DNA of 64,000 bases from Cubamyces lactineus (Eukaryota > Basidiomycota > Agaricomycetes > Polyporales > Polyporaceae): the NCBI GenBank assembly GCA_022376465.1, contig JACDTU010000028.1:240289-304288 (forward strand), given 5' to 3'. Made by a program: the position numbers and the translations under genes. The notes under the pieces are model-generated. The model did not search any database and had not been told where the DNA came from. It saw only the letters and a list, made by a program, of their open reading frames with translations. Position 1 is the first letter of the stretch; every line of letters starts with the position of its first letter. This document shows positions 15,041-34,115 of this stretch, piece after piece.

Positions 15041-15319
15041 TGTAAGGATTCCGTGCAACTAGCACGGGATCCACACTGGAATGTGCCACGAGCACATTCC
15101 GACATTCCGAAGGGGATGGCGCTAATCGCGCCATCCGCGTAGATTACAAACACTTGTACTAGATCTATGCGAGCGTACGGCGCCCTAGACGTTCGGGGTC
15201 TGGGCGCCTGGTGGGTAAGTCTTTCTTACCCACCATCCTCACGAGTACGCCGAGCCCAATACGAGCCCGGTCCAGAGTACTTGAGGATAGGGTGTGGAAG
15301 ACACCCGTGAGTTTTAACA
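15041..15319 (+). repeat. element A 5' LTR (279 bp)
   Basis: Begins TGTAAGGATTCCG and ends GTTTTAACA. There is no TATA box. The LTR is a chain of hairpins with five-base loops: stems 15046-15056/15062-15072 (loop AACTA), 15078-15086/15092-15100 (CACGA), 15114-15122/15128-15136 (TAATC), 15210-15219/15225-15234 (TCTTT) and 15290-15295/15301-15306 (GGAAG). A longer GGCGCCC/GGGCGCC inverted repeat lies around 15178-15207. Confidence 0.93.
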
Positions 15320-15412
15320 CTTTTTTACTCTTCCGAGTAGCGAACAACAAGCCCGAATTGGGCCCGACGTCACACGTCATCAAGAATCCCCCATTCCACC
15401 AACTCAACTTCT

Positions 15413-15437
15413 ATCTCTAGACATGGCGTCTAGAGAT
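15413..15437 (+). promoter_or_regulatory. hairpin with the gag start codon in its loop
   Basis: A perfect 10-bp stem (15413-15422 with 15428-15437, core TCTCTAGAC/GTCTAGAGA) closes a five-base loop ATGGC. The first three loop bases are the gag ATG (15423-15425). In the RNA the start codon would be presented in a loop, which could tune translation or packaging. Three smaller hairpins precede it in the leader (15326-15339, 15351-15363, 15366-15378). Confidence 0.75.
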
Positions 15438-18400
15438 TCTCCCACAGGAGAGGGGCAACCATCACGGTTGTCCCCGAAGACAACTCGTCCTCCTCTCGCA
15501 CCTCTTGCCGCGTCGGCATCAGGTCCGAGCAGGTCCACCCCCTCGCAATTAGCGGGGGGTTCTTCACCTTTCGAATTGCTGCAAGCTGGCAGCGCGACGA
15601 CCTCCAAGAAACCTTCACCTCTCGCTAGCAGAGCAGCTAGCAAGAGCCGGCCAAGCAGCAGATCATCAAACCGTTCAAACGCGAACAGTGACCGAGGTAA
15701 GCGAAGGGCTACCTCGCCCCGAGCATACAGAACTCCACCCGAGACAGAAGAGCCCGCCGAGCAATTAGTTCGCGCGGGTAACAAGCAATCACCTAGGTCG
15801 GATCACGAAGGACGATTGCAACAAGCAATCGAGTCGGGACAAGTGTCTAGACGTCAGTCAGAGCAAGGCAGCCAAGCGCTGCAGAAAGCCGCGATAGCCG
15901 GCTTACTTCGAGATGCGCGAGCACGATATAGCCAGCTCGCACAACAAGTGCAGCAGGCTGAAGAGCAATTCACAGCTCAAATAGAAGCTGTAATGGCTGC
16001 TACTGGGTTGTCCTTGGACTGGGAAGACGAGCGAGAAAACGACAAGTCGTCATTTCATGAGGATGACGCCATGTCCTCCAGAGACGAACAGCAGGTGGAC
16101 GATCTAGTCCAACCTGAAGAAAACGACCAGTCAGGCCCCGAAGAAGAAGGACCTCAACGATTCGTGAGTGGAGTGCAAGAAGCTCTCCACCGTCTTGATG
16201 CAGGACGAATGCATCGTCTGCGAAGTGCCGGATTGGCGGAAGAGGAGCACTTCATTAGTACTCCTCAAACAAGCCCGTCGTATCATTCGGCCAGTGCCCA
16301 ATTTGGACGCACCGAGGAGCAACGAGCCCCTCGGCGTAGTGTCGCGTTCGATGGGCTTGGTCCAAGTTCGATGCCGTCCGTTGAGGATTCGCTGGTTGCG
16401 GATCCCCAGCCTTCAGCATCGAGAGGTCCGGCATATAGGCAGACGGCGTGGACTTTGCCATTATCGGGACCGAGTGCCTGGGGTCCTCGTAGGACCTCGA
16501 TGGCACCTACTATCACAGCGCCTATCTCGGGTTCACGCGAACCACGAGAAGACTTAGCCTACGTTGGCCCCATAGCCAACGTACGCGATGGTATAGGAGT
16601 TCAAAGGCTCCTTACCATGATAGATGAACAAGTGGGAAGTGATCCCACCGACGAGCCGCCTGCGTATTTGAAGCTGGCTAAATTGCCAGCTCCACCGCAA
16701 TACGAAGGCAAGGACGACGCCGACAAGTTCGAGGTCTGGCTTCAAAGCCTACTCGAATATTTCAGTACCCTGCGCCTAACTGGCAAAGGGTTCGATAAGG
16801 ATCGTCTGCGACTAGCAGGCAATAGCCTAGGTGGCAACGCAGCCACCTGGTTCTACAACACCATCAAGTCCCCGACGCGCGAGAAGACGCACTGGACGTT
16901 CGAAGAAGCCATAGTAGGCTTATATCGACGGTTCATTCACCGCGATATGCATTTGGTAGCAGAGCAGCAATTCGCTGCTCTGAAATACGACTCCACTAAG
17001 GGTGGAGTCGCAGCACTTTACGAACAGATGCGCTTCCACGCCGACAAGATGTGGGAGAAGCCTACCGACTTCCAGATGCGCAAGAAACTGCTCGAAACAT
17101 TACCCTACCAATTCGAGCAAACCCTCACTATATACAAAGGGCTATCTGCCCAGTATAACACATTCTGGGAGATTTACCAGGCCGCGCTCGAATATGAGCA
17201 AAGCCTCCGAATTCTGCAAAGCCGACGAAACTCGCGTGAAACATCGGGTACACAGGCTAGTACCTCTAGTTCAGGCAAAGCATCACGAGACGCTAAGTCT
17301 GGACGATCGCATGGAACATCACATCGTCAGCAACAACGAACCACTGCAAATAGCAGTGGCAAACCGGGATGGTCCTATCATAGACCATCCGACAATCGAA
17401 ATTACCGTGCACCTCAAGCGAGTGCTTCAGGTACACGGCCCACTTCATCCACTAATGTACCCCGCAATGAGCGCGGTACGGGTCCGGTGAAGTGCTTCGC
17501 ATGTGGCCAAATAGGCCATTACGCAAGTGATCCAACCTGTCCGAAGTATGGGAAGCAAAATACTTCCCATAACGCGAGGATGTTCGCGCAGCAAGTAGTG
17601 CACGAACCTCCAGCGGACGAAGAAGAGCCGGTTCCACTAGAACCTGCTGAAGTCCCTCCTAAGGAGGAAGCGGAAGAGGAACATCCCTTTTCCGAAACAA
17701 TCCCTGAACCCGAAGCGGATTACCCCGAATCCGAATTCGGAGGTAATGGATCTCAATACGAATCGGATCGAGAAGACTTACCCTCGCCGATATTCGAAGA
17801 AGAGATCGAATTCAATGGCATGCGCGTAGCAGCAATAAAAGAGATCGAAACTGATCTCTTGCGAGCCCATGCGATGGCCGTTCAACCAGAACGGAACATC
17901 CGGCATGGGTGGCTATACGATGCTAAGGTCCGAAGGTTGACAAGGCCTGAAGACCAACCGAAGCGTAATGAGTACGCACAGCGCACACTATGTGCTGAGA
18001 TACCCATCAATGGTATCAAAGCTCTGGCGTTATTCGATTCGGGTTGCACAACCGACTCGATGACACACGAGATGGCGTATCTGTGCAGAGCAGATCGCAT
18101 CGACCTGAACGAACCCGTTGGGCTCCAACTAGGAACCAAGGGAAGTAGAACGCGCATCAATCTCGGTGCGCGTGCTACGGTACAGGTCGGCCCAGTCAAG
18201 GCTGACCACTACTTCGATGTAGTAGACATCGACAAATACGATGTCATCTTGGGTACCATGTTCTGTCGAGAGCACAAAGTAGTGCTCAACTTTGGCAACG
18301 ACACGGTAACGGTAAAGGGACAATCGATTAGATTGTTCGACCCGGCCGAGTACGAAACGCGAAGACGACGTCAGGAAAATGACGTCGCAAAAGGAATTGC

Positions 18401-18497
18401 ACAAAGCAATATCCCGCCACCTAAGGCTAATCGGCCTATGGTGGACAAGGGAAAGAATACAACCCAGTATTCTACGCCCACAGCATCCGCAAAGTAG
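15423..18497 (+). CDS. gag: element A Gag-protease polyprotein
   Basis: 1024 codons from ATG 15423 to TAG 18497. A long low-complexity N-terminus is followed by the retrotransposon Gag capsid region (about 420-600: KFEVWLQSLLEYFSTLRL, WFYNTIKSPT, ALYEQMRFHADKMW). A zinc knuckle at about 691-706 reads CFACGQIGHYASDPTC; its last spacing is six residues instead of the usual four. An acidic linker leads to a retropepsin-like domain with DSG at about 872 (LFDSGCTTDSM) in place of the common DTG, then DVVDIDKYDVILGTMF. The frame is intact. The stop is UAG, and Pol continues in the same frame. Confidence 0.92.
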   Translation: MASRDSPTGEGQPSRLSPKTTRPPLAPLAASASGPSRSTPSQLAGGSSPFELLQAGSATTSKKPSPLASRAASKSRPSSRSSNRSNANSDRGKRRATSPRAYRTPPETEEPAEQLVRAGNKQSPRSDHEGRLQQAIESGQVSRRQSEQGSQALQKAAIAGLLRDARARYSQLAQQVQQAEEQFTAQIEAVMAATGLSLDWEDERENDKSSFHEDDAMSSRDEQQVDDLVQPEENDQSGPEEEGPQRFVSGVQEALHRLDAGRMHRLRSAGLAEEEHFISTPQTSPSYHSASAQFGRTEEQRAPRRSVAFDGLGPSSMPSVEDSLVADPQPSASRGPAYRQTAWTLPLSGPSAWGPRRTSMAPTITAPISGSREPREDLAYVGPIANVRDGIGVQRLLTMIDEQVGSDPTDEPPAYLKLAKLPAPPQYEGKDDADKFEVWLQSLLEYFSTLRLTGKGFDKDRLRLAGNSLGGNAATWFYNTIKSPTREKTHWTFEEAIVGLYRRFIHRDMHLVAEQQFAALKYDSTKGGVAALYEQMRFHADKMWEKPTDFQMRKKLLETLPYQFEQTLTIYKGLSAQYNTFWEIYQAALEYEQSLRILQSRRNSRETSGTQASTSSSGKASRDAKSGRSHGTSHRQQQRTTANSSGKPGWSYHRPSDNRNYRAPQASASGTRPTSSTNVPRNERGTGPVKCFACGQIGHYASDPTCPKYGKQNTSHNARMFAQQVVHEPPADEEEPVPLEPAEVPPKEEAEEEHPFSETIPEPEADYPESEFGGNGSQYESDREDLPSPIFEEEIEFNGMRVAAIKEIETDLLRAHAMAVQPERNIRHGWLYDAKVRRLTRPEDQPKRNEYAQRTLCAEIPINGIKALALFDSGCTTDSMTHEMAYLCRADRIDLNEPVGLQLGTKGSRTRINLGARATVQVGPVKADHYFDVVDIDKYDVILGTMFCREHKVVLNFGNDTVTVKGQSIRLFDPAEYETRRRRQENDVAKGIAQSNIPPPKANRPMVDKGKNTTQYSTPTASAK

Positions 18498-18547
18498 AGG
18501 AGCGTGGTGCATTCCACGAAAGTGGAACCCTCCCGAACGCACCGCGC
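18495..18547 (+). promoter_or_regulatory. candidate stop-codon readthrough signal between Gag and Pol
   Basis: Gag ends in UAG (18495-18497) and Pol follows in the same frame with no other stop. Four bases later (AGGA) a 9-bp stem begins: 18502-18510 (GCGTGGTGC) pairs with 18539-18547 (GCACCGCGC), with one G-U pair. Inside its loop lies a second hairpin, TTCCAC (18512-18517) with GTGGAA (18522-18527), loop GAAA. UAG followed by a strong structure is the arrangement used for Gag-Pol readthrough in gammaretroviruses. Reinitiation at ATG 18561 in the same frame is the alternative. Confidence 0.6.
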
Positions 18548-21500
18548 GACAAGCGACTTAATGTCGTCAGGAGGGGGAGGGGACGGCAACTCAGCCGTTA
18601 AGATTCCTGTACGACATCAAGGTCGGGCCAAAACAGACTCAGCCCCAAATATCAATGAAAGATTTGTGCCAACTAGGCACTCATCTACGGAACCCAGAAG
18701 AGACCGATGGGGTCAAGAAGATCCCTACGGAATGAACGAGATGCTTGATCGGATTGCAAAAGAGCAATGGGAAGATGAGATAATACGACGAAGCCACGTT
18801 GGCTTCGTCATAGACGAAAAAGAGGAGGAGCTAATCAAGCTCCGCGAAAAGTGGTATGCGAAGACGGAGGACATCATGCGTCCTCCGCCAGATGAATTAC
18901 CTCCTTATAGGGAGATAAATCATCGCATTCCACTCATCGACGAACAGAAGAAGTACCGCTATCACCTACCTCGGTGTGCGGAAGTAGTCAAGCCCGCACT
19001 GATCGAGAAGATCAGGCGGTACGTTAAGGCAGGATGGTGGCGACATGCCACTGTGGAGCAAGCAGCTCCCCTGCTATGCGTAGCCAAGAAAGACGGCAAA
19101 TTACGGACAGTTGTTGACGCACATCAGCGTAACAACAATACGGTCCACGACCTCACGCCATTTCCGGACCAGGATCTGATCCGGATGGATGTCGCTCGAG
19201 CTAAGTATCGCTCGAAGATCGACTTATCCGATGCGTATGAACAAATACGCATAATAGCTGAGGACGTGTGGAAGACAGCGTTTGCCACTCCTTGTGGCAC
19301 GTTTGTGAGCGAGGTCATGCAACAGGGTGACACGAACGCTCCATCAACGTTCCAACGCCTGATGACTTCCTTGTTCTGGGATTGCATTGGACGATTTGTC
19401 CATGTATATCTCGACGATATCTTTGTGTATTCGGACTCCATCGAGGAACACGAAAAGCACCTGGAGATCGTCTTCGAGAAGCTACGCAAAGCGCAGCTGT
19501 ATTTAAGCCGCAAAAAATGCGACTTATTCTCGAAGGACATGGACTGTCTCGGTCATCGAATAGATGATCGGGGACTTCACGCCGATATGGACAAGATGAG
19601 CAGAATCCGCAATTGGAGGACTCCTCGTTCGTACCAGGAAGTGCAACGCTTCCTGGGTCTAGTCAACTACCTCGCACACTTCATGCCTGATGTAACGGCG
19701 TACACCACGCCATTATCGGGTATGATTAGGAACGACAGACCTTTCGTCTGGCGCGCATTGCACGACAAGTGCTTTGAGTCGATCAAAGCCTTGGCTTGCA
19801 AAGTTCCCATTCTCAAGCCGATCGACCCCAACAGGAATGAGCCTATTTGGCTCATTTGCGACGCTTCCGTATATGGGCTCGGTGCCCTATACGGCCAAGG
19901 ACCTAACTGGCAAACCTGTCGTCCTGCTGGACTTCTATCTAAGAAGTTCACGAGTGCGCAACGAGCGTACCCCACTTATGAGCAGGAAGCTCTAGCAATT
20001 CTCGAAGGATTGATGAAGTGGGAGGACAAACTACTAGGACGACATGTCCACGTAGTAACAGACCACAAGGCCTTGGAATTCTTGCAAGGGATACCTCGGC
20101 CCAACAGCCGACAAATCCGGTGGTACGAGTTTTTAGCTCGTTTCCAGTACGACATCACGTACATCCCGGGCAAGTTGAACAAAGTAGCTGACTGCTTGTC
20201 ACGCTACTATGAGAACGACAACTTCGATGAACCCGTCAACGAGTGGGACTACGTCAACGCAGACGTACGTCTTGATCCGAATGGGGATTTTCTTCCCTTT
20301 TCGCGAATGATCGAGTTGAAGGCTAGTCGTATTTTGCGACGATCTGCAAGGCTAGCGGAGAAGCAAGAAGCTTCTCTTGCTGCAAAAGCCAAACTTCCAG
20401 AAGTTGTCGAAGATCGCGTTCAGGAAGCCCAACAGCTTTCTGTAGCCCGTCCACAAACAGTGAACGAGGCTCCGAAGAAGGACGAAGATCCTACAGTAGG
20501 AGAACTCCTATCATCAGGACCTCCACTCAAGATTCGAGTGGAATCACAAGATGGATTCCATAACGCTATCCGAAAGGGATACGTTATGGACACGATGTTC
20601 AAGAAAATCGTCGAGGATCCGTCTCAGCACAAGGCCTTCACCATGCGTGAAGGTCTTCTCTACACTCAGAACCATAGCGGTAGCGAGGTACTATGTGTAC
20701 CTCGCGTACTACTCAAGGCTAGGATGCTGCCCGAGCTAGTTATCGACTGTGCTCACGGCACGCTTGGTCATCTCGGGCCTCAACGCACGTCTGACTACGT
20801 TAGGCGATGGTTCTGGTGGCCTAGCCTACGCAAGGACGTAGATAAATTCTGCACATCTTGCGGCACTTGTCAGACCATTAAGGCGAGCAATCAGCTCCCT
20901 ATGGGTCTCTTACATAGTTTACCAATTCCACGAATGCCGTGGAATTCGATTTCGATGGATTTTGTGGGTCCTTTCCCGCCGTCGCACGGACACGATTATG
21001 TGTGGGTGATCGTCTGTCGATTAACTTCACTGGTACACTTAGTACCTATCAATACTACTACTACCGCGGCCGAGTTGGCCATGGTCTATCTACGAGAAGT
21101 AGTGCGACTGCATGGACTGCCCGAGACTATTGTGTCTGACAGGGACAGCAAGTTCACGTCCAAATTTTGGCGCGAACTGCACCGGTTGATGGGGGCTAAA
21201 TTGCTCATGTCGACCGCTTTTCACCCACAGACAGATGGACTTAGCGAGCGAACTATTCGTTCGGTCACGCAAATTCTGAGAGCCATGGTAGCTCCGGACC
21301 AGAAAGACTGGTACGAGAAGCTACCCCTAGCCGAATTCGCCTTGAATTCAGCTACAAACGCATCTACTGGGTTTGCTCCATTCGAGTTGACCTACGGCTA
21401 CTTGCCGAAGTCAATGAGTGGTATCTCCACAGATACGCACTATCCCGGAGTGAAGGAGTACGCGCAACGAGCGCGTACTTATCTCGAGCAAGCACACGAC

Positions 21501-22037
21501 GCATTGATCGATGCGCGAGTGTCGCAAACGTTCCACGCGAACAAACGAAGACGGCACGAGCCCGACTTCGAGGTGGGGGACAAGGTATACTTGTCCACCA
21601 AGAATTTAGCAATACCGAAAGGACGAGCAAGAAAGCTCGTTCCCAAGTATATAGGCCCCTACACGATAATAGGAGCCTTCCCGGAGTCGTCCAACTACTT
21701 GTTGGACTTACCCGCTGAATTGAAGGAACGTCGGATACATCCGAAATTCCATGTGTCGCTACTAAGGCGACACGAGCCGAACGATGATGACTTGTTCCCT
21801 GGTCGAGAAGCACAGGCCTACTATGATGTAGGTCTAGACGACGAGCAAGAGTGGCTCGTCGACGAGATTATTGGACACGAGTGGGACGGCAAACGATGCC
21901 GTTTCCACGTACGATGGACGCTTGGTGACCATACATGGGAGCCATACGAGCATTGCAAAGAGCTCGTTGCTCTTGACAATTACTGTAACTTGATGGGGGT
22001 GAAGTCATGGCGGCAATTGCCTAGGCACAAGAGCTAG
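18498..22037 (+). CDS. pol: element A Pol: RT, RNase H, integrase, chromodomain
   Basis: In frame with Gag after one UAG; the first in-frame ATG is at 18561. Reverse transcriptase motifs: KKDGKLRTVVDAHQRN, KIDLSDAYEQIRI, QGDTNAPSTFQRLM and the catalytic VYLDDIFVY at about 302-310. RNase H follows (WLICDASVYGLGALYG, YEQEALAILE, TDHKALEFL). The integrase zinc motif HGTLGH...CTSCGTC and the DDE core (MDFVGPF, VSDRDSKF, AFHPQTDGLSERTIR) are complete. A C-terminal chromodomain (WLVDEIIGHEWDGKRCRFHV; WTLGDHTWEPYEH) suggests chromatin-guided integration. The frame is intact, so the element may be active. It ends at TAG 22035-22037, in the loop of an 11-bp hairpin. Confidence 0.95.
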   Translation, partial: RSVVHSTKVEPSRTHRATSDLMSSGGGGDGNSAVKIPVRHQGRAKTDSAPNINERFVPTRHSSTEPRRDRWGQEDPYGMNEMLDRIAKEQWEDEIIRRSHVGFVIDEKEEELIKLREKWYAKTEDIMRPPPDELPPYREINHRIPLIDEQKKYRYHLPRCAEVVKPALIEKIRRYVKAGWWRHATVEQAAPLLCVAKKDGKLRTVVDAHQRNNNTVHDLTPFPDQDLIRMDVARAKYRSKIDLSDAYEQIRIIAEDVWKTAFATPCGTFVSEVMQQGDTNAPSTFQRLMTSLFWDCIGRFVHVYLDDIFVYSDSIEEHEKHLEIVFEKLRKAQLYLSRKKCDLFSKDMDCLGHRIDDRGLHADMDKMSRIRNWRTPRSYQEVQRFLGLVNYLAHFMPDVTAYTTPLSGMIRNDRPFVWRALHDKCFESIKALACKVPILKPIDPNRNEPIWLICDASVYGLGALYGQGPNWQTCRPAGLLSKKFTSAQRAYPTYEQEALAILEGLMKWEDKLLGRHVHVVTDHKALEFLQGIPRPNSRQIRWYEFLARFQYDITYIPGKLNKVADCLSRYYENDNFDEPVNEWDYVNADVRLDPNGDFLPFSRMIELKASRILRRSARLAEKQEASLAAKAKLPEVVEDRVQEAQQLSVARPQTVNEAPKKDEDPTVGELLSSGPPLKIRVESQDGFHNAIRKGYVMDTMFKKIVEDPSQHKAFTMREGLLYTQNHSGSEVLCVPRVLLKARMLPELVIDCAHGTLGHLGPQRTSDYVRRWFWWPSLRKDVDKFCTSCGTCQTIKASNQLPMGLLHSLPIPRMPWNSISMDFVGPFPPSHGHDYVWVIVCRLTSLVHLVPINTTTTAAELAMVYLREVVRLHGLPETIVSDRDSKFTSKFWRELHRLMGAKLLMSTAFHPQTDGLSERTIRSVTQILRAMVAPDQKDWYEKLPLAEFALNSATNASTGFAPFELTYGYLPKSMSGISTDTHYPGVKEYAQRARTYLEQAHDALIDARVSQTFHANKRRRHEPDFEVGDKVYLSTKNLAIPKGRARKLVPKYIGPYTIIGAFPESSNYLLDLPAELKERRIHPKFHVSLLRRHEPNDDDLFPGREAQAYYDVGLDDEQEWLVDEIIGHEWDGKRCRFHVRWTLGDHTWEPYEHCKELVALDNYCNLMGVKSWRQLPRHKS

Positions 22038-22050
22038 TTGCTCTTGTGCC
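22024..22050 (+). promoter_or_regulatory. hairpin with the pol stop codon in its loop
   Basis: An 11-bp perfect stem (22024-22034 GGCACAAGAGC with 22040-22050 GCTCTTGTGCC) closes the five-base loop TAGTT. The first three loop bases are the pol stop codon. Two more five-loop hairpins follow: 22054-22060/22066-22072 and 22101-22109/22115-22123. Confidence 0.8.
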
Positions 22051-22285
22051 CTACCACTACTAGTCGTAGTGGGAGGCAAAGCCGAAGAAGCCAAGTCTTC
22101 GAAATGGTGATGTCCACCATTTCAATAAGCGCCGGATACGATCATGAGACGAGAGGACGCGACGCGTTACGCGTTAGCGCCGAATCTGGAGATTCAAACT
22201 CCACCAGCGCCAAACAGCGAGGACACGCGTTTTCGCTAAGTCTCCGTCTCTCGTGCCAGCCCTTCGCCAGCACTACACCACCACC

Positions 22286-23527
22286 ATGTCCAGCAACCAG
22301 CAACACCGTTCACCTCGCGGGCGACGACACTCGTCGCCGCCACTACCACCACCACTACCGTATGGGACTCCAGGGGGCGAAGACGTCATGGAACAAGACC
22401 CGGGGCATTCGCTAGTTGCGGATGCCCCCCAGCTGCCGCCCAGCTACTTTGCTGGGCCACAGCCTTTGCCGATGTCGGAACGACCGACACGATACGATCA
22501 GCCACCTCCCCCAGGATACAACTCGTATCCTGGACAAGGAGTCCACCCTCAACGTCAAGCTGCGCTGCCACACGCAGCGTACTTTGGTCAAGGGTCGTCC
22601 ACTCAGACGGCCCACTTCCCTCAACTACCAACCGTGCCTGCGGGATCAAGTATGCCCCTGGGTATGCCTCCGCTAATGCCAATCCCGGGCATTCCCAACC
22701 TCATGTGGGAGGAGATCCCCGACTACCCTTTGCTAGTCGCGCACCGGGAAGGCTGTGCTTGTTGCATGGACTTCCTGCGGCACTATGCCGCCGCGACGAA
22801 CGAAATGTCGTTCAGAGACGCACTCACGCGAGTCCAAACAGACTTGCAGAGGCGTTTCTGGGCGCATTTCGAGCAACACGCTCGGTCCTCAGGGGGAGGG
22901 GAGCGGGAACGAGAGCTCGAACGAGAACACGAGCGCGACGTCGGAAGGATCCGCGAGCTGCAACGAGCAGTTCGTGAATATGAAGAATTAGAACGAGCGA
23001 ACGCCAGGCTGCGTGAAGAGCGGGATTGGCTCCAAGACGAGCTACGCGACGTCCGTTCAGACAATGAACGGCTTCGCGGTGAGCGCAATCGCATCCGCGA
23101 GACATTACAAAATTTATACCGCGAGCGCAATCAGCCTCGCGGCCCATATCAGACTCCAAGTTCCAATCCCGACCATCGTCATCGAGACCCACGCGAGGTC
23201 AGTCCACGACGACCAGCTCAGTCTCGAACCACCACAACGAGTGGTGTGCCTACGAGTCAAGCCACGACTGAGGCGGGGCCGTCGAGAAGAAGGTCGCCAC
23301 CTCCGCAACGAGCGGAGGCGCAGCATACAGGACGAACAGCCTCGGCTGCTGGGTCTCACCGATCCAGTCAGCCGGAGGCCGCGATATCCCAGTCCAAAGG
23401 CAAGCAGCCTGTGGGCCGTGACGACTTCGACAATTTGTCGGAATTGTCGTCAGACAGCGACGGCAATCCTGTCGACCGCGACAAGATCCAGAAGGCCATC
23501 ATACGATCTCGTATGAGACGGGCGCGC
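22286..23527 (+). pseudogene. element A third ORF, 5' part (split by B1)
   Basis: From ATG 22286 the frame codes 414 codons up to the B1 insertion after C23527. The remainder continues in frame at 44167. Features: a proline/glutamine-rich start (PPLPPPLPYG, PPPPGYNSYPG), then a strongly charged coiled coil at about 205-285 (ERERELEREHERDVGR, ANARLREERDWLQDELRD), then an Arg/Ser/Pro-rich linker. No membrane segment is seen, so it is not env-like. The position after pol is unusual for a chromovirus. The frame was intact before the insertion. Function unknown; a nucleic-acid binding or assembly role is only a guess. Confidence 0.8.
23524..23527. repeat. target-site duplication of B1, left copy (GCGC)
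   Basis: GCGC precedes the B1 5' LTR (T23528) and follows its 3' LTR at 44163-44166. Removing one copy restores the reading frame of element A's third ORF, which confirms a 4-bp duplication. Confidence 0.85.
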
Positions 23528-23559
23528 TGTCACGCACCAATTTGGATTGGTACCTGGAC

Positions 23560-24543
23560 ATGGCAGAATCAGTACAAGTCAGTGGGAACGGATTAGCTAA
23601 AAGTCACGTGCCAGACCTGAGTAAGCGGATGACTGAGCAGCAACGTGATCATCAACGTGGCACAGATGCGCAGTCAGTCAGCTTCTCATCATCACCCATC
23701 ATGGTCGGCGTGTCATTCGATCTTCCCTTGGCTGTCCAGCACGCGATTCCCCGAGACGTTCAGCCAGACCAAATACCCCGCTGCCCCGTAGTAGCCTATG
23801 GCCTGGACCACCACGTTCTTTTCCGACCCGACGGCCTCTTCCCGCATCGGCTACGACCAGTCGCGTTAGGCGAGGAAGTCGACGAGCGAGATGTGTGGGT
23901 AGACGTTGAACCCGCAAACAAGGAGGTGCGCCCACGATGGTTTGTTCCCCGGGTGGGAAGCTACTGCCGACTAGTGCTCCCCGACCAACGACGTTTCACG
24001 GGGCGAATCACGCGCGTGGTCGAATACCAGCAGACGCGCATCGTTCTGTGGGTAGAACACCCACACTCCCCTGCCAGTGTCACCTTGGCAGTCCCCTACG
24101 CATTCTTCGAAGGGACTCGGTGGTGGTACATTCGGTTGCGGAGCTGGCTTGGATGGTTGCGACCCGACAGCGACCGGCACAACTCGGGCAAGTTTTTCAT
24201 TTCGCTCATATGTACACGTTGGAATCTCACACATCCACAGTGGTTGGACAGTCCCCGAACATCGACGAGTGGGAACTGGATGACCACATTCAGGGGGAAT
24301 TCCAGTATCTGTACGCGAGCTGAGGGAACGGGTATCGGACATGGACTTCTTAGATACAGTCATTCTTTCGGACAGTCACTCCTTTCGCGATCTCAATGGA
24401 CGTTCATCACTTTTTCCATTGCCAGATTCATGCCAGAGGCATACCTAAGAGAGGTATCTGAGGCAGTACTACCAGCAACGAGGCTATGCAAGGCTATACG
24501 GTGTTGCCATCGAGGCTGTGAAGCTAGCAACGCACAGCCATGA
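23560..24543 (+). CDS. ORF inside U3 of the B LTR (5' LTR copy)
   Basis: ATG 23560 to TGA 24543, 327 residues. The middle part reads like a folded protein (VSFDLPLAVQHAIPRDVQ, RPRWFVPRVGSYCRLVLP, GRITRVVEYQQTRIVLWVEH, FFEGTRWWYIRLRSW). After about 24170 this frame loses protein character while the next frame gains it (VFHFAHMYTLESHTSTVVGQ, then NIDEWELDDHIQGEFQYLY, stop at 24323). An ancestral one-base frameshift there is likely, shared by all three LTRs. U3 is present in element RNA only at the 3' end, so expression would be from the 3' LTR copy. No family recognised. Confidence 0.5.
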   Translation: MAESVQVSGNGLAKSHVPDLSKRMTEQQRDHQRGTDAQSVSFSSSPIMVGVSFDLPLAVQHAIPRDVQPDQIPRCPVVAYGLDHHVLFRPDGLFPHRLRPVALGEEVDERDVWVDVEPANKEVRPRWFVPRVGSYCRLVLPDQRRFTGRITRVVEYQQTRIVLWVEHPHSPASVTLAVPYAFFEGTRWWYIRLRSWLGWLRPDSDRHNSGKFFISLICTRWNLTHPQWLDSPRTSTSGNWMTTFRGNSSICTRAEGTGIGHGLLRYSHSFGQSLLSRSQWTFITFSIARFMPEAYLREVSEAVLPATRLCKAIRCCHRGCEASNAQP

Positions 24544-24885
24544 ACAGCCTCGGACACGACAACCAATGGCGCAGCCATACACTGTTCTAGAATGTTCCAG
24601 CTCATGCTAGAGGATACTAGAACACACAAGGAGGAACTAGAAGGTTCTTGAGGCAGTTCACAGCCTGGAATCTTCCGGGACTTCAAAGACTTAGAGGAGG
24701 CAGTGACCGCACAGCCTTGGGGCAGTGTACACAGCCGTTTGGCAGGGTAATTTGCAAAGCCGGGAGCATCCCAGACCTTGGTAGAACACCCTAGAATGTT
24801 ATGGAAGGTTCAGAGAACTAGTTAGTCATACATTAGTAAGTAGTTAGTAATGTAGATAGAATGCGCCGGAAGCTTTCTGGGAGAG

Positions 24886-24893
24886 TATATATA
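24886..24893 (+). promoter_or_regulatory. TATA box of the B LTR
   Basis: TATATATA in a GC-balanced context inside the LTR. Transcription would start about 30 bases on, leaving a leader of about 1.1 kb before gag. Confidence 0.6.
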
Positions 24894-25917
24894 CTCGACT
24901 GGCAAGGCCCCGGAAAATAGAGAATCATATCAAGAGATCACAGTAGGACTTTCTCACAAGCGAGTAAAGTCTGAAGCCAGCCAGCAAGGCTGCGGTAAGT
25001 ATCAGCAAGCACCAGCAAACCAGCAAGGCAGCAAGTTCGAGTCGATAGTCAGCAAGTCCAGCAATCGCCGTCAAGTTCTCAGCAAGTACAGCAGCAGGGA
25101 AGGTTTCTGCGCGAGTCATCGTAGGGCAATCGTTCAAATAGTTCTCCGTGTGGAACACGTTCGATTGGGCCTTACCATCGCTCGGTAGAACCACGAGTTA
25201 TATCGTAAGTCACTACAGGTTGGACCTTCGCAGCCGAGTCTGGGGTTTCGCAGTCTGAGTGCAGATACACGTCGGTAGATCGAAGGAAGAACGGGATAGG
25301 GCGGTTCTTAGACCGTTGACCGTTGACGAGAGCGTGCACGCCGTGTGGGTTAGTTAGGGGAAACTCTACCAGCTCTATCGGTACGTTCTAGAGTAGGTGG
25401 AGGAAGCTTTCTGGTAGTTACCGGAGGTTTCTGGGAAGGTTTCGAGATCATTACGACCTGGGAAGTAGAGGTCTAATCTTACTAGGTTCGATAGACTTAG
25501 TTAATTCCGTAGATTCTATTAATAGCGTACTTCGCCAAGTAAGGGCCACCCCGAACTCGGCAGAGCCACTGTCTGGAAAGGAGGAAAACCGACAAGCTTT
25601 GCGGCAACGTGAGGTCTTTTGGTTCAATCGTTTCGAGACTCGTATTCGAGAAACGTATTCTGTGTCACCCCTCATTTCTTTCATTTTGATCTTCATAGAA
25701 CTGTTGGTATCCCACCCTCGGTCGAAGATTTTTGATTGTTTTGAGTAAGGTAGTCCATAGGTAGTCTGTCAGTAGTCAGTTAGGAGGTATCTCGTCACTT
25801 CTGTGAGGTGCGATCCTTTACGCTTTCTGCATACATACTTCCGCTTTTGAGTGTGTTACACGCACCCATCAGTCCCTAGCCAAGCAAAGGACCGAGACCG
25901 ACCCCACTCGCGACATC

Positions 25918-25935
25918 TGGAGCCCACCGCGAGGG
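25918..25935 (+). promoter_or_regulatory. primer-binding site of B1
   Basis: TGGAGCCCACCGCGAGGG begins two bases after the LTR end. It starts with TGG, the complement of a tRNA 3' CCA. The tRNA species could not be assigned from memory. The same sequence follows the B2 LTR at 57615. Confidence 0.55.
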
Positions 25936-26020
25936 GAGCACAGAGAGTGTGTCTCATTTTCAGTACGCAATAGATCAGGAATTGAGTAGAAAGTTTATCG
26001 TTCCAGCGCTCAGAATTCCA

Positions 26021-29000
26021 ATGTCATCAACAATGGATGCACGTAGCAGTAGAGCCCACAGCCCGTCCTATGGAAGTGATCTTTCTTCTATCCCGTCGTC
26101 ACGTTCAGTTATGGACTTGCCGATGGAAGGGACAAAGCTGGCCCCAAAGACGTTTAGAGGGGATCCGGCTCAGGTGGAGCAGTTCTTGCGTAGGTTTGAG
26201 AGGCTAGCCATGTTACATAACCTCTCCCCTCGTGAGAAATGCGAGACCATAGTGGACTATTGCAGCAAAGTTGTTCGCGAGACAATTCAGGGATTTGCAG
26301 CGTATAGGATGCACAACTGGGAGGAACTGAAGCAGAATGTTCGCATTTTCTGGAATGCTGATCTTGAGGATAAGCGTTTCAGGATCCGTGATCTTCAAGC
26401 TTTTATTGCTCATTCTAGGAAGCAGCCTATCCATGAGTTGAAGGATTGGCGCAAGTACCTTCGTAAGTTTATCCGTATTGCAGGTTGGCTAGAGGGTCAA
26501 GGCAAGCTCACCGCCGATGACTACGCCTACTACATGTGGACAGGCTTATATGGGCCATTCCGGAAGCGATTGGAAGCTAGGATTCTTTTGAAGGACCCAA
26601 GCCACGACATGGCCGAGCCTTTTAAGCCTGAAGCTATCAGGAAAGCCGCCGAGGCAATTCTGGGAGTGGATAGGTTTGACACAGAGAGGCTTGGATCGGA
26701 AGATTGGTACGAGGATGACTCTGATAAAGACCAGTCAGATGATCTGCGGGAACTTGAGAGGCCTAGCACGAAACGGACGAAGAAGACATCGGCGAAGAGT
26801 AGGAAGACTCAGTCGGGATGGAAGGATGACGATGAAGATTCGGACGACGACGATTTCGATAGGGCGCTGCCGCGAGAAGTGCCGCGAGCCGTGGAGAAAG
26901 AGGGTAAGGCAGGAAAGGAGGCGAAAGTGGAAGAGAAGGAGTTCGACGAGTTGGTCGAGAAGATGAAGAAGTTGTCAGTGAATGATCCTCAGTATGGATT
27001 GTTGTTTCTGAAGGCATGCACTATGAAGCCTATTGCTGCTGATTGCTTGCCTCGCCCGCAGGTGAATCAAGCTGCACCTGACCGTGTCGACGGAAGGAGG
27101 ATGATGCCACCACATATATCTCGTCCAGACCCTAACCGATTCTTGTCGTACAGGCAACCGTTGCCGAATGCGGGAGGATGCTTTGGTTGCGGAGAGACAG
27201 GGCACATCATAGGTGAGTGTCCCCAGCTCCAGAAGTATCTGAAGGATGGTCTCCTTCTGAAGGATTTCAGAGGAAGGTGGACTTTGCCGGATGGTTCTCT
27301 GGTGAGACGCAATATGGGAGAAACGTTAGTGCAGGCAGTCAAGCGAGCGTTCCCAGATGTGCACTTTGTGACATATGGTGATCGACTCATAGGAGACGAC
27401 AATGAGGAAGCAGAGGAGAGCGCAGACGTATTGGTGTATCCAGTTGAGCGTACTCAGCGTGAGACTAGATCGTACCGGAAACAGGTGTTTGACAAAGGTC
27501 CAAGCTTGTCGTCTTTGCAGGAAAAGGGGAAGCAGAAGGAGTCAACTAGTCAGAAGCCAACTGTGCCTATGGCTCGGTTCCCGATGCAACGCCTTACACC
27601 CGTAGAGACACAGTCCCAGAGCTTTAACCCAGACAAAGATATTGAGATGGTCGAAGATCGTACTCTGAATCAGCGTCAGAAGAAGTCGAACAACGTACCT
27701 GTTAGCGACCGTGCTCGGGTGCCTGCTAGGGCCTCGCAGATCAGTAAGGATGTGGATCCATCTGCTGTATTGGACAAGATCCTCAACGCTCCAGTTACCT
27801 TATCAGTACGGGATGTTGTGGGTGTTTCCAAGGATGTGGCTAATTGCTTGCAGGAGGTGCTTAAGGTCAAGAAGGCTGATACCGTACCCGCTCCCGCTTC
27901 GCACTTGGTGACATCTAAGGCAGGATCTTTGATCCGCTTGGAAATGGAATGTAATCAGAAGCCAGTATCGTTTATTGTGGACACAGGCTCGCAGTTGAAC
28001 ATCATCAGCGAGGCAGTGTGCAAGAACATAGTTCGCAGGCCCATCAACACTGGTGAAGCGATCTCGATAAATGATGCAAATGGAGGATCTGGTAGGTTGC
28101 TTGGTTTGGTTGAAGACATCCCTCTCAAGATTGGGCATGTTAAAACACCGATCAGTGCATATGTAGCAGAGAACCCACCATTTGACGGACTTCTAGGCAG
28201 ACCCTGGCAGCGTGCACATAAGATTGGCATTGAAGAACGGGATGACGGAACCTATCTCACATTCCCTAACGAGAAAGGTTACGCGAAGTCAGAGCTATTG
28301 GTTACTACGTCGCTCGCAAGCAGAGGGACACCAGGTGTTTTCTCAGCGATTGTGAAGGAGTGGAACCAAGAAGAACCGAAGTGTGCAGTTATAGAACACG
28401 AAGGCTCGAACTCAGACGACTCAGATGCAATGTTGATTGCCTCAGCTGACAACGGGAGTGGCAACTTGGAAGGAGAGCCAGCTCAAGAAATGGAAGGCAC
28501 AGACTCTGACGAGAAGGAGGTCTCAGATCCAGATCCGGAAGGTCAGGATGACTCCGACTTCTGCTCAGAAAGCGATCAGGATGAAGGATATAGTCTAGAC
28601 CACGTACTTGGGTTATTGTCGTTGAGGGAGAACTCCGATGACGAAGAAGAGAAGCGGGAGAAAGACATGTATCGGAAAGTGTGGCGTTTCATGGAGATGC
28701 GGAATCCTGGGGGTACATTTGTGAAGGCTGGACCATGCACTATCATGACGGGCACGTCAGTGGAGTTACAGAATTCTGACCCGGGGGTAATCAGCCGAAC
28801 ATTCCTCTTGAGGGATGCTAAGCTATTTAACCGAGCAGGAGGATGTCACGGGCACATGATAGTCAAGGTAGTACCGTATGACGCGACTAGTTGTACGCGG
28901 TTTGAGCAGCTAGCAGATGATACTTTACGGGAGGTGAATGTGAATTCACTCCAAGTGGAAGAACCACCTTTGTCAGAAAGGGAGGGTAGCGATCAGAGGG

Positions 29001-30454
29001 TAACTCAGCAACAGGCACCAGCAATGCTACTGACAATGCGTGTCTGGCTCGAAGGGTATACGTTCCCATTCTTGATTGACACCGGATCTCAGATTGACTG
29101 CATTCATGCTAATATCTGGCGAGCCATAGGATGGGCACACCCGCTGACACGTAAGGCAGAGAAGGTGCTGAACGTTACAGGGTCACGACTTAGATGCTTG
29201 GGAGTATGGAAGGCGTTTGTTACCGTAGGAACCATTTCAGCCTTGGTAGACTTGCACGTCGTCGAAGACTTGACGGAGGTAGGAATACTGGGGAGGCCAT
29301 GGCAAGAGCTGAATCGTATGACACTTAGTGACACCGACGATGGAGTCTATCTCAGCATTCGGTCAGAAGATGGGTTACACACCTATGGGATGTTGGTAAC
29401 ATCGCCAGAGACACAGCGAGCAGTACGACGGAAAGCTAGAGAACTCTGCGCATCGGTGATTAGTCCGAACACAGTGAGGGCACCTAATGAGGGGTCCAGT
29501 CAGTGGCACAGATATCAAGGTCCGGAAGTACCAGACTGGTGGCACGGAGCCCACGTCGCTTCAGTTCAAGAGGAACAGGAGTCACAAGTGGATCTGTCAC
29601 TAGAGTCTACTCCAGAATACGATCCATGGGACTGGAAGGCAGGCGAGAAATCGGATGAGATGGATCCGGAACAGGAAGTCAGTGAAGCCAATTTGGAGAA
29701 CCGGATGTACTCAAAGCTTCTATGGCAATACTGTCACGGGCATCGTCTTCCGAGAGCTATTTCTCAACCGCAAATCGAGTCCATCGAGGTGTACGAGTCA
29801 GACAAACTCGAGCTTAGAGATGATTGGTTGACAGGGATCTCGAAGAAGGAACACATGTTCATTCTACGGAACGTATTAGTGCGCATAGACGGCAAGTATC
29901 GAGAAGGACACGGTGTGTTACGCATGGTGTACTTCCCACACGAGTCAGAACGTGCCAAGATAGCAAACGCAGCACTGAAGGAGGATCACGATACAGAGCG
30001 GAATGATACAGATGAAGAGTGGGAGCAGGAGCAGAGGGATCGGAGACTTCTTAGACGACGAATCTGGCCTAAGTATACGCAGGCAGACTTGTATCAGTCA
30101 ATGGAGGAGGTCGCTTTCGAAACACGAAACCGGGGGTCGATCAGCATAGACACGGAAGAGATGGAGCCAGGCGAAATCTCGGAAGTAACCCGACACGGGG
30201 CTGACAATTCTGGTGACGCGGACGTAGAAGACAACAACGTAGGCAGTATAGACGACACTCAGTCCGAGGGCAGCACGGTAGTGAACGGAATTCACAGGGG
30301 AAAAGGACAGGGGAACGGTTCCTCAACAATTGCATCAGTGACGCATGGGAACGCCTTCCTTGTCTCACACCACTTATTTGGACAAGTAGACGCACCGCAG
30401 GTTATTGCTAACACGCCCGGATGGAGACCTCAGTCTAGTCTTGACAATGTATGA
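26021..30454 (+). CDS. gag: B1 Gag polyprotein with two protease-like domains
   Basis: First in-frame ATG at 26021, stop TGA at 30454, 1477 residues. The Gag capsid region spans about 45-230 (GDPAQVEQFLRRFERLAML, WEELKQNVRIFW, YMWTGLYGPFRKRLEARI). A standard CCHC knuckle lies at about 387-400 (CFGCGETGHIIGEC). Two aspartic-protease-like units follow: FIVDTGSQLN (Asp about 654) with GLLGRPWQ, and FLIDTGSQID (Asp about 1020) with GILGRPWQ. Each has the DTGS turn and the LLGRPW strand, so this is a tandem duplication that has since diverged. The C-terminus is acidic. Pol lies 7.8 kb downstream, so simple frameshifting cannot join them. Confidence 0.9.
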   Translation: MSSTMDARSSRAHSPSYGSDLSSIPSSRSVMDLPMEGTKLAPKTFRGDPAQVEQFLRRFERLAMLHNLSPREKCETIVDYCSKVVRETIQGFAAYRMHNWEELKQNVRIFWNADLEDKRFRIRDLQAFIAHSRKQPIHELKDWRKYLRKFIRIAGWLEGQGKLTADDYAYYMWTGLYGPFRKRLEARILLKDPSHDMAEPFKPEAIRKAAEAILGVDRFDTERLGSEDWYEDDSDKDQSDDLRELERPSTKRTKKTSAKSRKTQSGWKDDDEDSDDDDFDRALPREVPRAVEKEGKAGKEAKVEEKEFDELVEKMKKLSVNDPQYGLLFLKACTMKPIAADCLPRPQVNQAAPDRVDGRRMMPPHISRPDPNRFLSYRQPLPNAGGCFGCGETGHIIGECPQLQKYLKDGLLLKDFRGRWTLPDGSLVRRNMGETLVQAVKRAFPDVHFVTYGDRLIGDDNEEAEESADVLVYPVERTQRETRSYRKQVFDKGPSLSSLQEKGKQKESTSQKPTVPMARFPMQRLTPVETQSQSFNPDKDIEMVEDRTLNQRQKKSNNVPVSDRARVPARASQISKDVDPSAVLDKILNAPVTLSVRDVVGVSKDVANCLQEVLKVKKADTVPAPASHLVTSKAGSLIRLEMECNQKPVSFIVDTGSQLNIISEAVCKNIVRRPINTGEAISINDANGGSGRLLGLVEDIPLKIGHVKTPISAYVAENPPFDGLLGRPWQRAHKIGIEERDDGTYLTFPNEKGYAKSELLVTTSLASRGTPGVFSAIVKEWNQEEPKCAVIEHEGSNSDDSDAMLIASADNGSGNLEGEPAQEMEGTDSDEKEVSDPDPEGQDDSDFCSESDQDEGYSLDHVLGLLSLRENSDDEEEKREKDMYRKVWRFMEMRNPGGTFVKAGPCTIMTGTSVELQNSDPGVISRTFLLRDAKLFNRAGGCHGHMIVKVVPYDATSCTRFEQLADDTLREVNVNSLQVEEPPLSEREGSDQRVTQQQAPAMLLTMRVWLEGYTFPFLIDTGSQIDCIHANIWRAIGWAHPLTRKAEKVLNVTGSRLRCLGVWKAFVTVGTISALVDLHVVEDLTEVGILGRPWQELNRMTLSDTDDGVYLSIRSEDGLHTYGMLVTSPETQRAVRRKARELCASVISPNTVRAPNEGSSQWHRYQGPEVPDWWHGAHVASVQEEQESQVDLSLESTPEYDPWDWKAGEKSDEMDPEQEVSEANLENRMYSKLLWQYCHGHRLPRAISQPQIESIEVYESDKLELRDDWLTGISKKEHMFILRNVLVRIDGKYREGHGVLRMVYFPHESERAKIANAALKEDHDTERNDTDEEWEQEQRDRRLLRRRIWPKYTQADLYQSMEEVAFETRNRGSISIDTEEMEPGEISEVTRHGADNSGDADVEDNNVGSIDDTQSEGSTVVNGIHRGKGQGNGSSTIASVTHGNAFLVSHHLFGQVDAPQVIANTPGWRPQSSLDNV

Positions 30455-33400: not shown

Positions 33401-34071
33401 GAACGCGGAAGGACACGGTTAGCATCGAAGTACGGACTAGGAACAAAGGTTCCGGGGCATTGTAACGCGTACAACACCCCAGAACCCTCGCGCGAGAATA
33501 TGCGCGACACGCGCGCATGTCGCGAGCTCAGTCAGCAAAGGAATAGTACGTACGGATAAGTGCATGACCGGCGGCGGCCGAGAGCGATGGCTGTATGAGC
33601 CAGAACTTGAGTGCGTCGCGGAAGGAGCAGCGAGACAAGTCTGGAGGAGGTTAGTACGAATGGTGAAAAGTTTGAGGGTTAGTACATACCTTGGGCCCAT
33701 GTAAAATTCGCTATCGCATGAGTTCCAGGGGACCCGCTAGTAGTACGCCAAGGAACGGAAGCATTTGTCGAGACGGGTAGTGCCGGAAAGCTGTGTTGAA
33801 AACATAGAAGGCCGGACAAGAGCCAACAGTTGGAAACGAGACCAGCGGAATGCGAGCCCAGAAGGCATCTAGGAGATCGTGGTCAGCATGAAGATCGAGA
33901 GGACCGAAGGTGCGGTAAGTACACAACTCGCGTACTTACCAAATTGGGAAGGCTCAGTTGTGGGTGCACGCGCGAGACGTTCGTAGTGGCGAACCACCAC
34001 CTGCTGAGGCGCGCGAGACCAAGGACGTCAGCAGCAAGCAACAAGACACAGAAAGGTACGCACGCGAGGAG
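30455..34071 (+). other. B1 gag-pol spacer, first part
   Basis: 3.6 kb, purine-rich on the plus strand, without a convincing protein. The first 2 kb is shared with B2 (62050-64000), but the copies differ by several one-base insertions/deletions, unlike the near-identical gag, so it is probably non-coding. It holds a 53-bp tandem repeat (31441-31582), a copy of GACTGTGGGGCG (31970-31981) and several RTTAGTAC-type motifs. Confidence 0.6.
31441..31582 (+). repeat. 53-bp tandem repeat, about 2.7 units
   Basis: Units begin AGATCCGCCG at 31441 and 31494, and a third partial one at 31547 (AGATCCGCTG). They have diverged by roughly 15-20 percent. The same repeat is at about 63104-63245 in B2. Confidence 0.75.
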
Positions 34072-34079
34072 TATAAAAG
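34072..34079 (+). promoter_or_regulatory. internal TATA box before the B accessory gene
   Basis: TATAAAAG, 37 bases upstream of ATG 34116. It looks like a core promoter for a transcript starting inside the retrotransposon. Confidence 0.5.
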
Positions 34080-34115
34080 GACGGGAGGACGAGCGGAACG
34101 AATGAACAGCACACC

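Follow-up and report, generated by a model that had tools for sequence, protein, structure and literature searches.

Why should a retrotransposon carry perfect hairpins throughout, in its coding sequence as well as its termini? The question is raised by one element (hereafter element A) in a window of 64,000 nucleotides from the fungus Cubamyces lactineus (contig JACDTU010000028.1, positions 240,289 to 304,288), for which a preliminary description had claimed saturation with perfect hairpins, mostly with five-base loops, and had suggested that either selection favouring structure in the genome RNA or repeated template switching of reverse transcriptase might be the cause. To our knowledge, there is no agreed purpose for the genome-scale RNA structure of RNA viruses.

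Element A belongs to the LTR retrotransposons of the Ty3/gypsy type (Table 1). Its 279-bp LTRs are 100% identical to each other and bounded by TG...CA, a CCAGG target-site duplication flanks the element (15036-15040 and 46239-46243), the gene order gag-(PR)-RT-RNase H-integrase is present as in Ty3/gypsy with a weak protease match, and the best solved-structure match to pol was the Ty3-G polyprotein. The element consists of 15041-23527 and 44163-46238, two halves split by a nested 20.6-kb element; because that element sits inside A, the end of A is at 46238 and not at 22123, where it had been placed earlier. The supposed separate elements B and C likewise dissolved on analysis, as the ORFs taken for them (25949-30454 and 38220-41726, respectively) are the gag and pol of the one nested element, the insertion of which is marked by a GCGC duplication read from the flanking sequence. 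Relatives of A were sought in the same genome and in IMG/VR, with none found in the latter. A sister family (C15), the pol of which is 56% identical to that of A, shares the extra ORF3 and, directly after the LTR, CTTTTTTAC rather than the TGG of a tRNA primer-binding site.

Table 1. Coordinates of element A, its parts, and the element nested within it (positions in the window)
Feature	Position	Strand	Remarks
5' LTR of A	15041..15319	+	TGTAAG...TTAACA; five pentaloop hairpins at 15051, 15078, 15114, 15209, 15290
Start-codon hairpin	15413..15437	+	10-bp perfect stem; five-base loop holds the gag start codon (15423)
gag of A	15423..18497	+	1024 aa; CCHC zinc knuckle, weak protease match
pol of A	18504..22037	+	1177 aa; RT, RNase H, integrase
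ORF3, first part	22253..23527	+	uninterrupted copy C17: one frame, 866 codons stop to stop
Nested giant Ty3-type element	23528..44162	+	interrupts ORF3 of A; LTRs of 2.39 kb; not hairpin-rich
ORF3, second part	44167..45423	+	419 aa; continues the frame of 22253-23527 if the insertion is removed
3' untranslated region of A	45424..45959	+	array of hairpins
3' LTR of A	45960..46238	+	identical to 5' LTR

Perfect hairpins with a stem of at least 6 bp and a loop of 3-12 bases were counted and compared with 30 dinucleotide shuffles. The region 15041-22240 holds 81 against 13.8 (sd 3.9) in the shuffles, with five-base loops numbering 33 against 1.2 and stems of at least 8 bp 22 against 0.8, whereas control host sequence (1-14800) shows no excess (37 against 32.9). 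Codon-shuffled A had been set beforehand as the falsifier, and both the hairpin excess and the five-base excess survive it in gag (37 perfect hairpins against 8.5, z 11.1; five-base loops 8 against 1.0) and in pol (34 against 7.6, z 10.5; five-base loops 16 against 0.9); the first part of ORF3 reached z 7.0 in a run that included 69 bases of the nested element. The same shuffling gave z 1.1 for host ORFs, -0.9 for B, 0.5 for D, and 3.7 for the pol of C, and the excess in other Ty3 families is weak at most. With the two shuffle types in agreement, the saturation of A is real and far beyond chance. In the sister family, codon shuffling also revealed hairpin richness (pol z 7.6, gag z 4.5).

All 13 hairpins listed in the preliminary description exist within one base of the coordinates given there, and 12 have the five-base loop ascribed to them; in the one at 18787-18809, additional pairing lengthens the stem to 10 bp and leaves a loop of 3 bases, and the stem of another (19037-19051) is just 5 bp long as read by eye. 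The count of five hairpins with a stem of at least 6 bp and a five-base loop in the 279-bp LTR was confirmed. Five is the commonest loop length in A, but other lengths occur as well: among the 98 hairpins with loops of 3-8 bases in 15041-23527 and 44163-46238, both LTRs counted, 46 have five-base loops (41 of these unique). Over the same loop range, the 3'UTR (5 hairpins per 536 bp) is no denser than gag (29 per 3075 bp) and pol (31 per 3534 bp), and the LTR (5 per 279 bp) is about twice as dense. The longest perfect stems listed, with loops of up to 8, are 11 bp in A and 12 bp in C15, for which about 1.1 kb of host flank was trimmed from the listing.

Predicted folding energy lies far below that of codon shuffles in A (z -16.7, -14.8, and -9.8) and in C15 (z -8.9 and -8.6), whereas the six control sets range from z -3.3 to +1.8. 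The MFED of 15041-23527 is 28.9% with 47 of 47 folding windows positive (15.7 to 48.8%), compared with 0.8% for the host and -0.2 to 5.3% for five other element sets, and, by prediction, nearly all of the RNA of A forms a succession of short hairpins with almost perfect stems. On each strand of A, G-U makes up a smaller share of the predicted pairs than in codon shuffles. The five-base peak and four-base shortage are not produced by energy selection alone: of the perfect hairpins in 100 random RNAs selected toward a folding energy of -0.405 per base (-0.375 in A), 27 have five-base and 27 have four-base loops, compared with 46 and 6 in A.

The loops also have sequence signatures. Predicted folds of the A ORFs contain 99 pentaloops against 34.0 in codon shuffles, of which 76% are closed by C-G (40% in shuffles), 73% have A at loop base 2 (41%), and 34% have T at loop base 4 (24%); the common signature, picked after looking, is C-[NANNA]-G. 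Pentaloops are enriched in C15 as well (45 against 20.7), but the loop-base signature is absent there, NAYKN occurring in 3 of 45 pentaloops and in 29 of 517 in shuffles. Five hairpins of the A 3'UTR (45519, 45598, 45710, 45780, and 45889) present the same 8-base loop, TTYGWTTC, on different stems. We take these loops to resemble a tRNA T-loop; tRNA mimicry was considered and rejected; 15000-46300 contains no tRNA, and 44163-46300 yielded no convincing Rfam match.

Whether the stems are maintained was judged from substitutions at 1239 stem pairs in diverged copies grouped into eight sets, counting alignments of at most 97% identity, non-overlapping blast segments, and pairs free of gaps on both sides. 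Pair-keeping changes numbered 148 against 165.1 expected (0.90) and pair-breaking changes 179 against 315.7 (0.57; P = 5e-5), and G-U was tolerated better than A-C among the relatives of A (P = 0.014), P values that are optimistic because the eight copy sets share ancestry. By class, observed and expected changes were 111 and 125.5 for G-U, 83 and 134 for A-C, 76 and 149 for transversion mismatches, and 36 and 37 for double Watson-Crick changes, the last at and not above expectation over all of A; divergence was 0.155 in stems and 0.222 elsewhere. Relatives were also tested for compensatory changes, as had been proposed at the outset, and the 3'UTR hairpins covary. Over all 11 non-overlapping perfect hairpins with a stem of at least 5 in three sequences (one of 12 was dropped for overlap), 93.5% of 170 cells are paired, compared with 17.2-47.0% for slid versions, and 6 pairs changed on both sides, a number as high in 6 of 500 shuffles; ten hand-picked hairpins gave 92.6% of 175 cells, 7 doubly changed pairs, and 3 of 500 shuffles, but the conclusion is drawn from the full set of 11. 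A 73%-identical copy keeps most of the 3'UTR hairpins, some with compensatory changes. The LTR hairpins are paired in 85.7% of cells over eight LTRs (34.5-45.5% for slid versions), with covariation that is weak when taken alone (6 pairs, reached by 61 of 500 shuffles). The start-codon hairpin is identical in the relative C16 and largely kept in C40, C1, and C7, in which five G-U changes and two broken pairs were counted by eye.

Selection for RNA structure probably maintains the hairpins of A, as indicated by the whole-element energy excess, the larger deficit of pair-breaking than of pair-keeping changes, and the 3'UTR covariation; of the two causes first proposed, this one is supported, and template switching as the main cause is not. 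On balance, we lean toward a reading in which the plus-strand RNA of A is under selection to form a nearly continuous local chain of short hairpins that are rich in Watson-Crick pairs and favour five-base loops, and in which that chain has a proposed use in protein docking and packaging. The pentaloops would be places, scattered along the RNA, at which RNA-binding proteins encoded by the element dock, namely the CCHC-containing Gag and perhaps the ORF3 product, and docking would compact the 10-kb RNA and package it into particles. Packaging or Gag binding as the chief role of the hairpins is plausible but carries less than even confidence. Only 3 of 31 A pol hairpins lie at corresponding places in C15 (1.1 expected, P 0.094; 19 of 22 C15 hairpins mappable); hairpins thus turn over, and so the density of sites would matter rather than each site. 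Dispersed packaging signals of MS2, other RNA viruses, and hepatitis B virus likewise comprise many stem-loops in which one loop motif recurs on different stems (PMC6281560), although in A the loop reader is putative and the signature is not shared by the sister family. More tentatively, A and its kin may represent a clade of fungal Ty3-type retrotransposons that write about 100 pentaloop hairpins per RNA through synonymous codons, to be read by Gag and/or ORF3 in condensing and selecting the RNA, with reader and loop signature diverging together while loop length stays at five.

A further candidate is selection for folding as such (GORS), by which the RNA would be a poor target for Argonaute and small RNAs and for host dsRNA recognition, and the loops would go unread. 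The MFED excess spans the whole element, and hairpin density is conserved between A and C15 while positions hardly are, as in the GORS of HCV, pegivirus, and coronaviruses, where the energy excess covers the whole genome including coding regions, consecutive stem-loops are many, and their density is conserved with positions and pairs poorly so, including in coronaviruses (PMC7642675). The host also seems to have RNAi machinery, with Piwi-domain matches at five places (C40, C22, C11, C12, and C23), RdRP matches at seven (C34, C9, C12, C1, C39, C21, and C11), and neighbouring RNase III domain pairs at C6, C5, and C42, although some matching frames hold stops or may hold introns. Shielding predicts neither the five-base preference nor the four-base depletion, which energy-selected random RNAs lack, nor the loop signature of A and the shared 8-base loop of its 3'UTR. 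A differs from those viruses in being a fungal LTR retrotransposon with short, near-perfect Watson-Crick stems and loops peaking at five bases, and its MFED exceeds the 23.4% quoted as the highest for vertebrate RNA viruses (PMC7642675), the methods being similar but not identical. We consider shielding unlikely as the principal explanation; under the docking and packaging reading, it might be a by-product or second driver.

Quite improbable as the main cause, in our judgment, is a mutational origin in which reverse transcriptase switches template by fold-back of the nascent strand and so perfects quasi-palindromes, with five bases set by polymerase geometry and no function needed. The standing stems speak for it. 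Where a stem of 7 or more Watson-Crick pairs is interrupted by a single internal non-Watson-Crick pair, G-U and A-C occur 17 and 14 times in A and 10 and 14 times in C15, and among stems with at least 9 Watson-Crick pairs, perfect ones and those with one internal mismatch number 17 and 12 in A and 18 and 21 in C15. The equality of G-U and A-C in near-perfect stems runs counter to RNA selection, which should favour G-U, and because of it template switching may still supply new hairpins. This pattern is near the "binary" one that was read as conversion in the mitochondrial coding palindromes of Nematomorpha (PMC6649704), the GC-rich loop-closing pairs could be priming sites, and double Watson-Crick changes do not exceed expectation. 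However, stem changes are not concentrated in one arm (0.28 against 0.35 expected over 26 hairpin comparisons with at least 4 stem changes, P 0.91), the 3'UTR is no denser than the coding regions even if the LTR is, and G-U is tolerated above A-C between copies of A. Nor do the near-identical copies C21, C6, and C17 display fresh conversion: one of their 19 variable sites in 17004-23527, too few to decide, falls in a stem and breaks a pair, and an LTR variant of the C6 copy likewise breaks one. The Nematomorpha palindromes resemble those of A as perfect inverted repeats in coding sequence, gained and lost between relatives and biased in codon phase, but reach 284 bp in mitochondrial DNA (PMC6649704), whereas here the loops are small, the stems measure 6-12 bp, each nuclear element carries dozens of them, and pair-breaking changes between copies fall short of expectation.

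The hairpins might instead act in DNA, as structures of single-stranded cDNA or as double-stranded palindromes (e.g., in strand transfer or integrase complexes), in which case the strands would be equal and G-T as harmful as A-C. The standing stems fit this, as does the C15-C8 comparison, in which G-U (18 against 30.7 expected) was kept no better than A-C (20 against 33.6; keeping versus breaking, P 0.79), and a C-G closing pair reads alike on both strands. Against it are the greater tolerance of G-U between copies of A, loop bases in A that are not strand-symmetric (though shuffles are skewed too), and the greater stabilization of the plus strand, which gains 1.57 kcal more than the minus strand per 120-base window (115 windows, P = 0.0016), a small difference of the same sign in all five reading frames that is significant by t-test in no single frame. 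We infer with moderate confidence, from partly conflicting evidence, that the structure acts in RNA, and we regard a DNA-level function as very unlikely. An artefact of chance or composition (codon usage, GC content, or palindromic codon pairs) has next to no probability and nothing found in its favour, being refuted by the codon-shuffled control and opposed by the dinucleotide shuffles, the host genes, and the other Ty3 families.

The preliminary description knew of no retrotransposon with this property, which agrees with limited literature searches. The RNAs of yeast Ty1 and Ty3 have stable, highly structured regions that make up to 30% of the RNA and are dispersed over the genome (PMC11381356), but the word "hairpins" is absent from the main text of that source and seemingly no such array is described there. 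In A, genome-scale RNA structure occurs in a DNA-integrated element, its predicted extent exceeds the maximum quoted for vertebrate viruses, dead copies provide a fossil record, and the sharp loop-length signature goes beyond what folding energy explains. The hairpin chain, its preference for five-base loops, and the tendency of pairing to be retained suggest a folding and recognition code built into the RNA genome. The purpose is thereby made testable, since distinct outcomes are expected under a mutational origin, under RNAi shielding, and under binding by Gag or ORF3.

The 57 hairpins of gag and pol with loops of 4-8 bases are distributed over the three codon phases as 30, 18, and 9, a bias that shows only that protein constraint shapes where hairpins fit. 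Codon phase proved a wrong guide to the frame of ORF3: the C17 copy is one ORF in the frame of 22253, and in that frame the hairpin phases run the other way (8, 3, and 3).

Perfect Watson-Crick hairpins with stems of at least 6 bp and loops of 3-12 bases were counted across the window and, for comparison, in shuffled sequence. The Ty3/gypsy-type LTR retrotransposon element A contained 81 hairpins in 15041-22240 versus 13.8 (sd 3.9) expected from 30 dinucleotide shuffles, with 33 versus 1.2 five-base loops and 22 versus 0.8 stems of at least 8 bp. The preliminary description had proposed that A is saturated with hairpins and had named codon-shuffled A as the refuting comparison; against 60 such shuffles per ORF the saturation held in gag (37 hairpins versus 8.5), pol (34 versus 7.6), and the first part of ORF3, the extra reading frame after pol (17 versus 3.4, including 69 bases of the nested element). 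Host sequence at 1-14800 contained 37 hairpins versus 32.9 in shuffles, and the nested element's gag 5 versus 8.1 in codon shuffles. The hairpin excess in A is real and specific. Twelve of the 13 five-base-loop examples originally listed were confirmed, and the remaining one, 18787-18809, pairs down to three loop bases.

Features of element A and of the element nested within it
Feature	Position in window	Size and type	Remarks
A LTRs	15041-15319 and 45960-46238	279 bp each, identical	CCAGG flanks on both sides
A ORF3	22253-23527 and 44167-45423		Split by insertion; open without interruption over 866 codons in the copy on contig C17
Nested element	23528-44162	20.6 kb, giant Ty3-type, 2.39-kb LTRs	Splits A; GCGC duplication
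Second copy of nested element	55220-64000	99.4% alike over 8.8 kb	Runs past window end

A's gag bears a CCHC knuckle and its pol encodes RT, RNase H, and integrase; the ORFs that we equate with B and C of the preliminary description are the gag and pol of the nested insertion. The window corresponds to 240289-304288 of contig C21, in a genome that at least 22 hydrophobin and 30 Fungal_trans matches identify as fungal. A search of the genome (36.3 Mb in 43 contigs) recovered A copies of about 10.56 kb, as judged from LTR spacing, on contigs C6 and C17, diverged copies (69-88% in DNA) on C12, C16, C40, C1, C7, and C2, and a sister family on C15 with a pol 56% identical to that of A over 1107 aligned residues, a diverged relative of which lies on C8. 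Directly after the LTR (window 15320-15340; locus L039), both families carry CTTTTTTAC in place of a TGG-type tRNA primer-binding site. A chromodomain Ty3-type element at 46.2-52.6 kb has a 0.46-kb repeat on each flank (46261-46716 and 52161-52615, 90% alike), the two lying in inverted rather than direct orientation.

The C15 family shared the excess under codon shuffling (pol, 35 hairpins versus 10.3; gag, 19 versus 7.8), and these two families stood out from the other element sets (z -0.9 to 4.5). Fold energies relative to codon shuffles gave z of -16.7, -14.8, and -9.8 for A, -8.9 and -8.6 for the C15 family, and -3.3 to +1.8 for the plus strand of six other sets. Minimum-folding-energy differences (MFEDs), calculated in 350-base windows with 8 dinucleotide shuffles per window, were 28.9% for 15041-23527 (47 of 47 windows within 15.7-48.8%), 23.0% for 44163-46238, 22.8% for a degraded copy on C12, 17.0% for the C15 family (windows -3.7 to 44.9%), and -0.2 to 5.3% for the host and five other element sets. 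The top MFED quoted for a vertebrate RNA virus in a coronavirus paper, likewise from 350-base fragments but with a different shuffler, is 23.4%; human pegivirus is given there as 12.5% and HCV as 7.5-10.7% (PMC7642675).

Five was the commonest loop length in A, as the preliminary description had indicated: loops of 3 to 9 bases numbered 5, 6, 46, 16, 14, 11, and 1 (stems of at least 6 bp, both LTRs included), and 8, 11, 23, 11, 7, 8, and 5 in the C15 family. Predicted folds of A's ORFs contained 99 five-base loops versus 34.0 and 26 four-base loops versus 45.6, and those of the C15 family 45 five-base loops versus 20.7. One hundred energy-driven random RNAs (-0.405 kcal per base; A, -0.375) showed four-base and five-base loops equally often among their perfect hairpins (27 each), and their folds contained 145 four-base versus 75 five-base loops; as they lacked a five-base peak, folding energy alone is insufficient to account for that of A. 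Within predicted folds, A's five-base loops were closed by C-G in 76% versus 40% in shuffles and had A as their second base in 73% versus 41%; the closing pair and second base in the C15 family were barely biased (40% versus 38% and 40% versus 28%, respectively). Five 3'UTR hairpins with differing stems (45519-45906) have in common the 8-base loop TTCGATTC (TTYGWTTC; variants TTCGTTTC and TTTGATTC), which we take to resemble the tRNA T-loop; these hairpins matched no tRNA and no Rfam family convincingly. A 10-bp hairpin at 15413-15437, with the gag start codon in its five-base loop, is a possible translation switch; one relative has it unchanged, and three more retain most of it.

Substitutions at 1239 stem pairs were tallied by mapping diverged copies, in eight sets, onto A, with expected counts taken from non-stem complementary pairs at similar distances. 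Single changes yielded 83 A-C mismatches versus 134 expected, 76 transversion mismatches versus 149, and 111 G-U pairs versus 125.5; double changes yielded another Watson-Crick pair 36 times versus 37 and a mismatch 20 times versus 33. Pair-keeping differed from pair-breaking (P 5e-5) and G-U from A-C changes (P 0.014), both P values being optimistic given shared ancestry. Divergence was 0.155 at stem sites, 0.233 in loops, and 0.222 elsewhere. In the C15-C8 comparison, single G-U (18 versus 30.7) and A-C changes (20 versus 33.6) were equally depleted, so G-U was not favoured there (keeping versus breaking, P 0.79). Most 3'UTR hairpins remained in position in a 73%-identical copy, where loops including AACTA and TCACTTG had stayed the same and some stems had changed on both sides. 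Across three sequences and all 11 non-overlapping perfect 3'UTR hairpins, 93.5% of 170 cells paired versus 17.2-47.0% when slid, and six pairs had changed on both sides, a count matched by 6 of 500 shuffles; among eight LTRs, 85.7% of cells paired versus 34.5-45.5% slid. Compensatory change, suggested earlier as a check in A's relatives, was borne out in the 3'UTR; in the LTR it was seen in helix 1, with the number of doubly changed pairs reached by 61 of 500 shuffles.

Measured against codon shuffles, the plus strand gained 1.57 kcal per 120-base window over the minus strand (115 pooled windows, P 0.0016), with the same sign in all five frames, none significant by t-test and one by rank test. 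Stems with exactly one internal mismatch comprised 17 G-U and 14 A-C in A, and 10 and 14 in the C15 family. Despite this equality in standing stems, the structure more likely acts in RNA.

Of the two causes initially offered, structure selection is the likeliest account: genomic RNA would be selected for dense small hairpins, with individual ones turning over. The pol hairpins common to A and the C15 family were 3 of 31 versus 1.1 expected. A real rival is that the hairpins shield A's RNA from RNAi, and Argonaute-, RdRP-, and Dicer-type domains are present in the host. Piwi domains (C40, C22, C11, C12, C23), RdRPs (C34, C9, C12, C1, C39, C21, C11), and paired, Dicer-like RNase III domains (C6, C5, C42) each occur at several places, and the host therefore likely has an RNAi system. 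The other initial proposal, template switching, predicts one-arm changes, which were not seen, and G-U equal to A-C, which fits the standing stems but not A's substitution counts.

A reader is suggested by the loop-length peak, by A's base signature, and by the recurrence of one loop in the 3'UTR; the element itself encodes two candidates, Gag and ORF3, that may bind the loops. ORF3 occurs in both hairpin-rich families (L013, L055; 866 and 851 codons) with weak similarity (best BLASTP E 5e-5); an arginine-serine-rich stretch is present in the C15 family's version. A's ORF3 had no convincing Pfam match, the only one being ZapB (E 0.002, below its cut-off); its product is a candidate RNA-binding protein.

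The likeness to viral genome-scale ordered RNA structure lies in hairpin density with turnover of single hairpins. In agreement with the preliminary description, no retrotransposon with this property was found described in open-access full text, a scope outside which most subscription papers fall; we regard the property as this already known kind of structure, carried by an LTR retrotransposon and marked by a pentaloop signature. Several other Ty3 families (L016, L018, L019, L021, and 38220-41726) had a weak, approximately twofold hairpin excess (z 3-4.5), with 4-5 five-base loops versus about 1 in L016, L018, and 38220-41726, and the property may be graded among Ty3 families.
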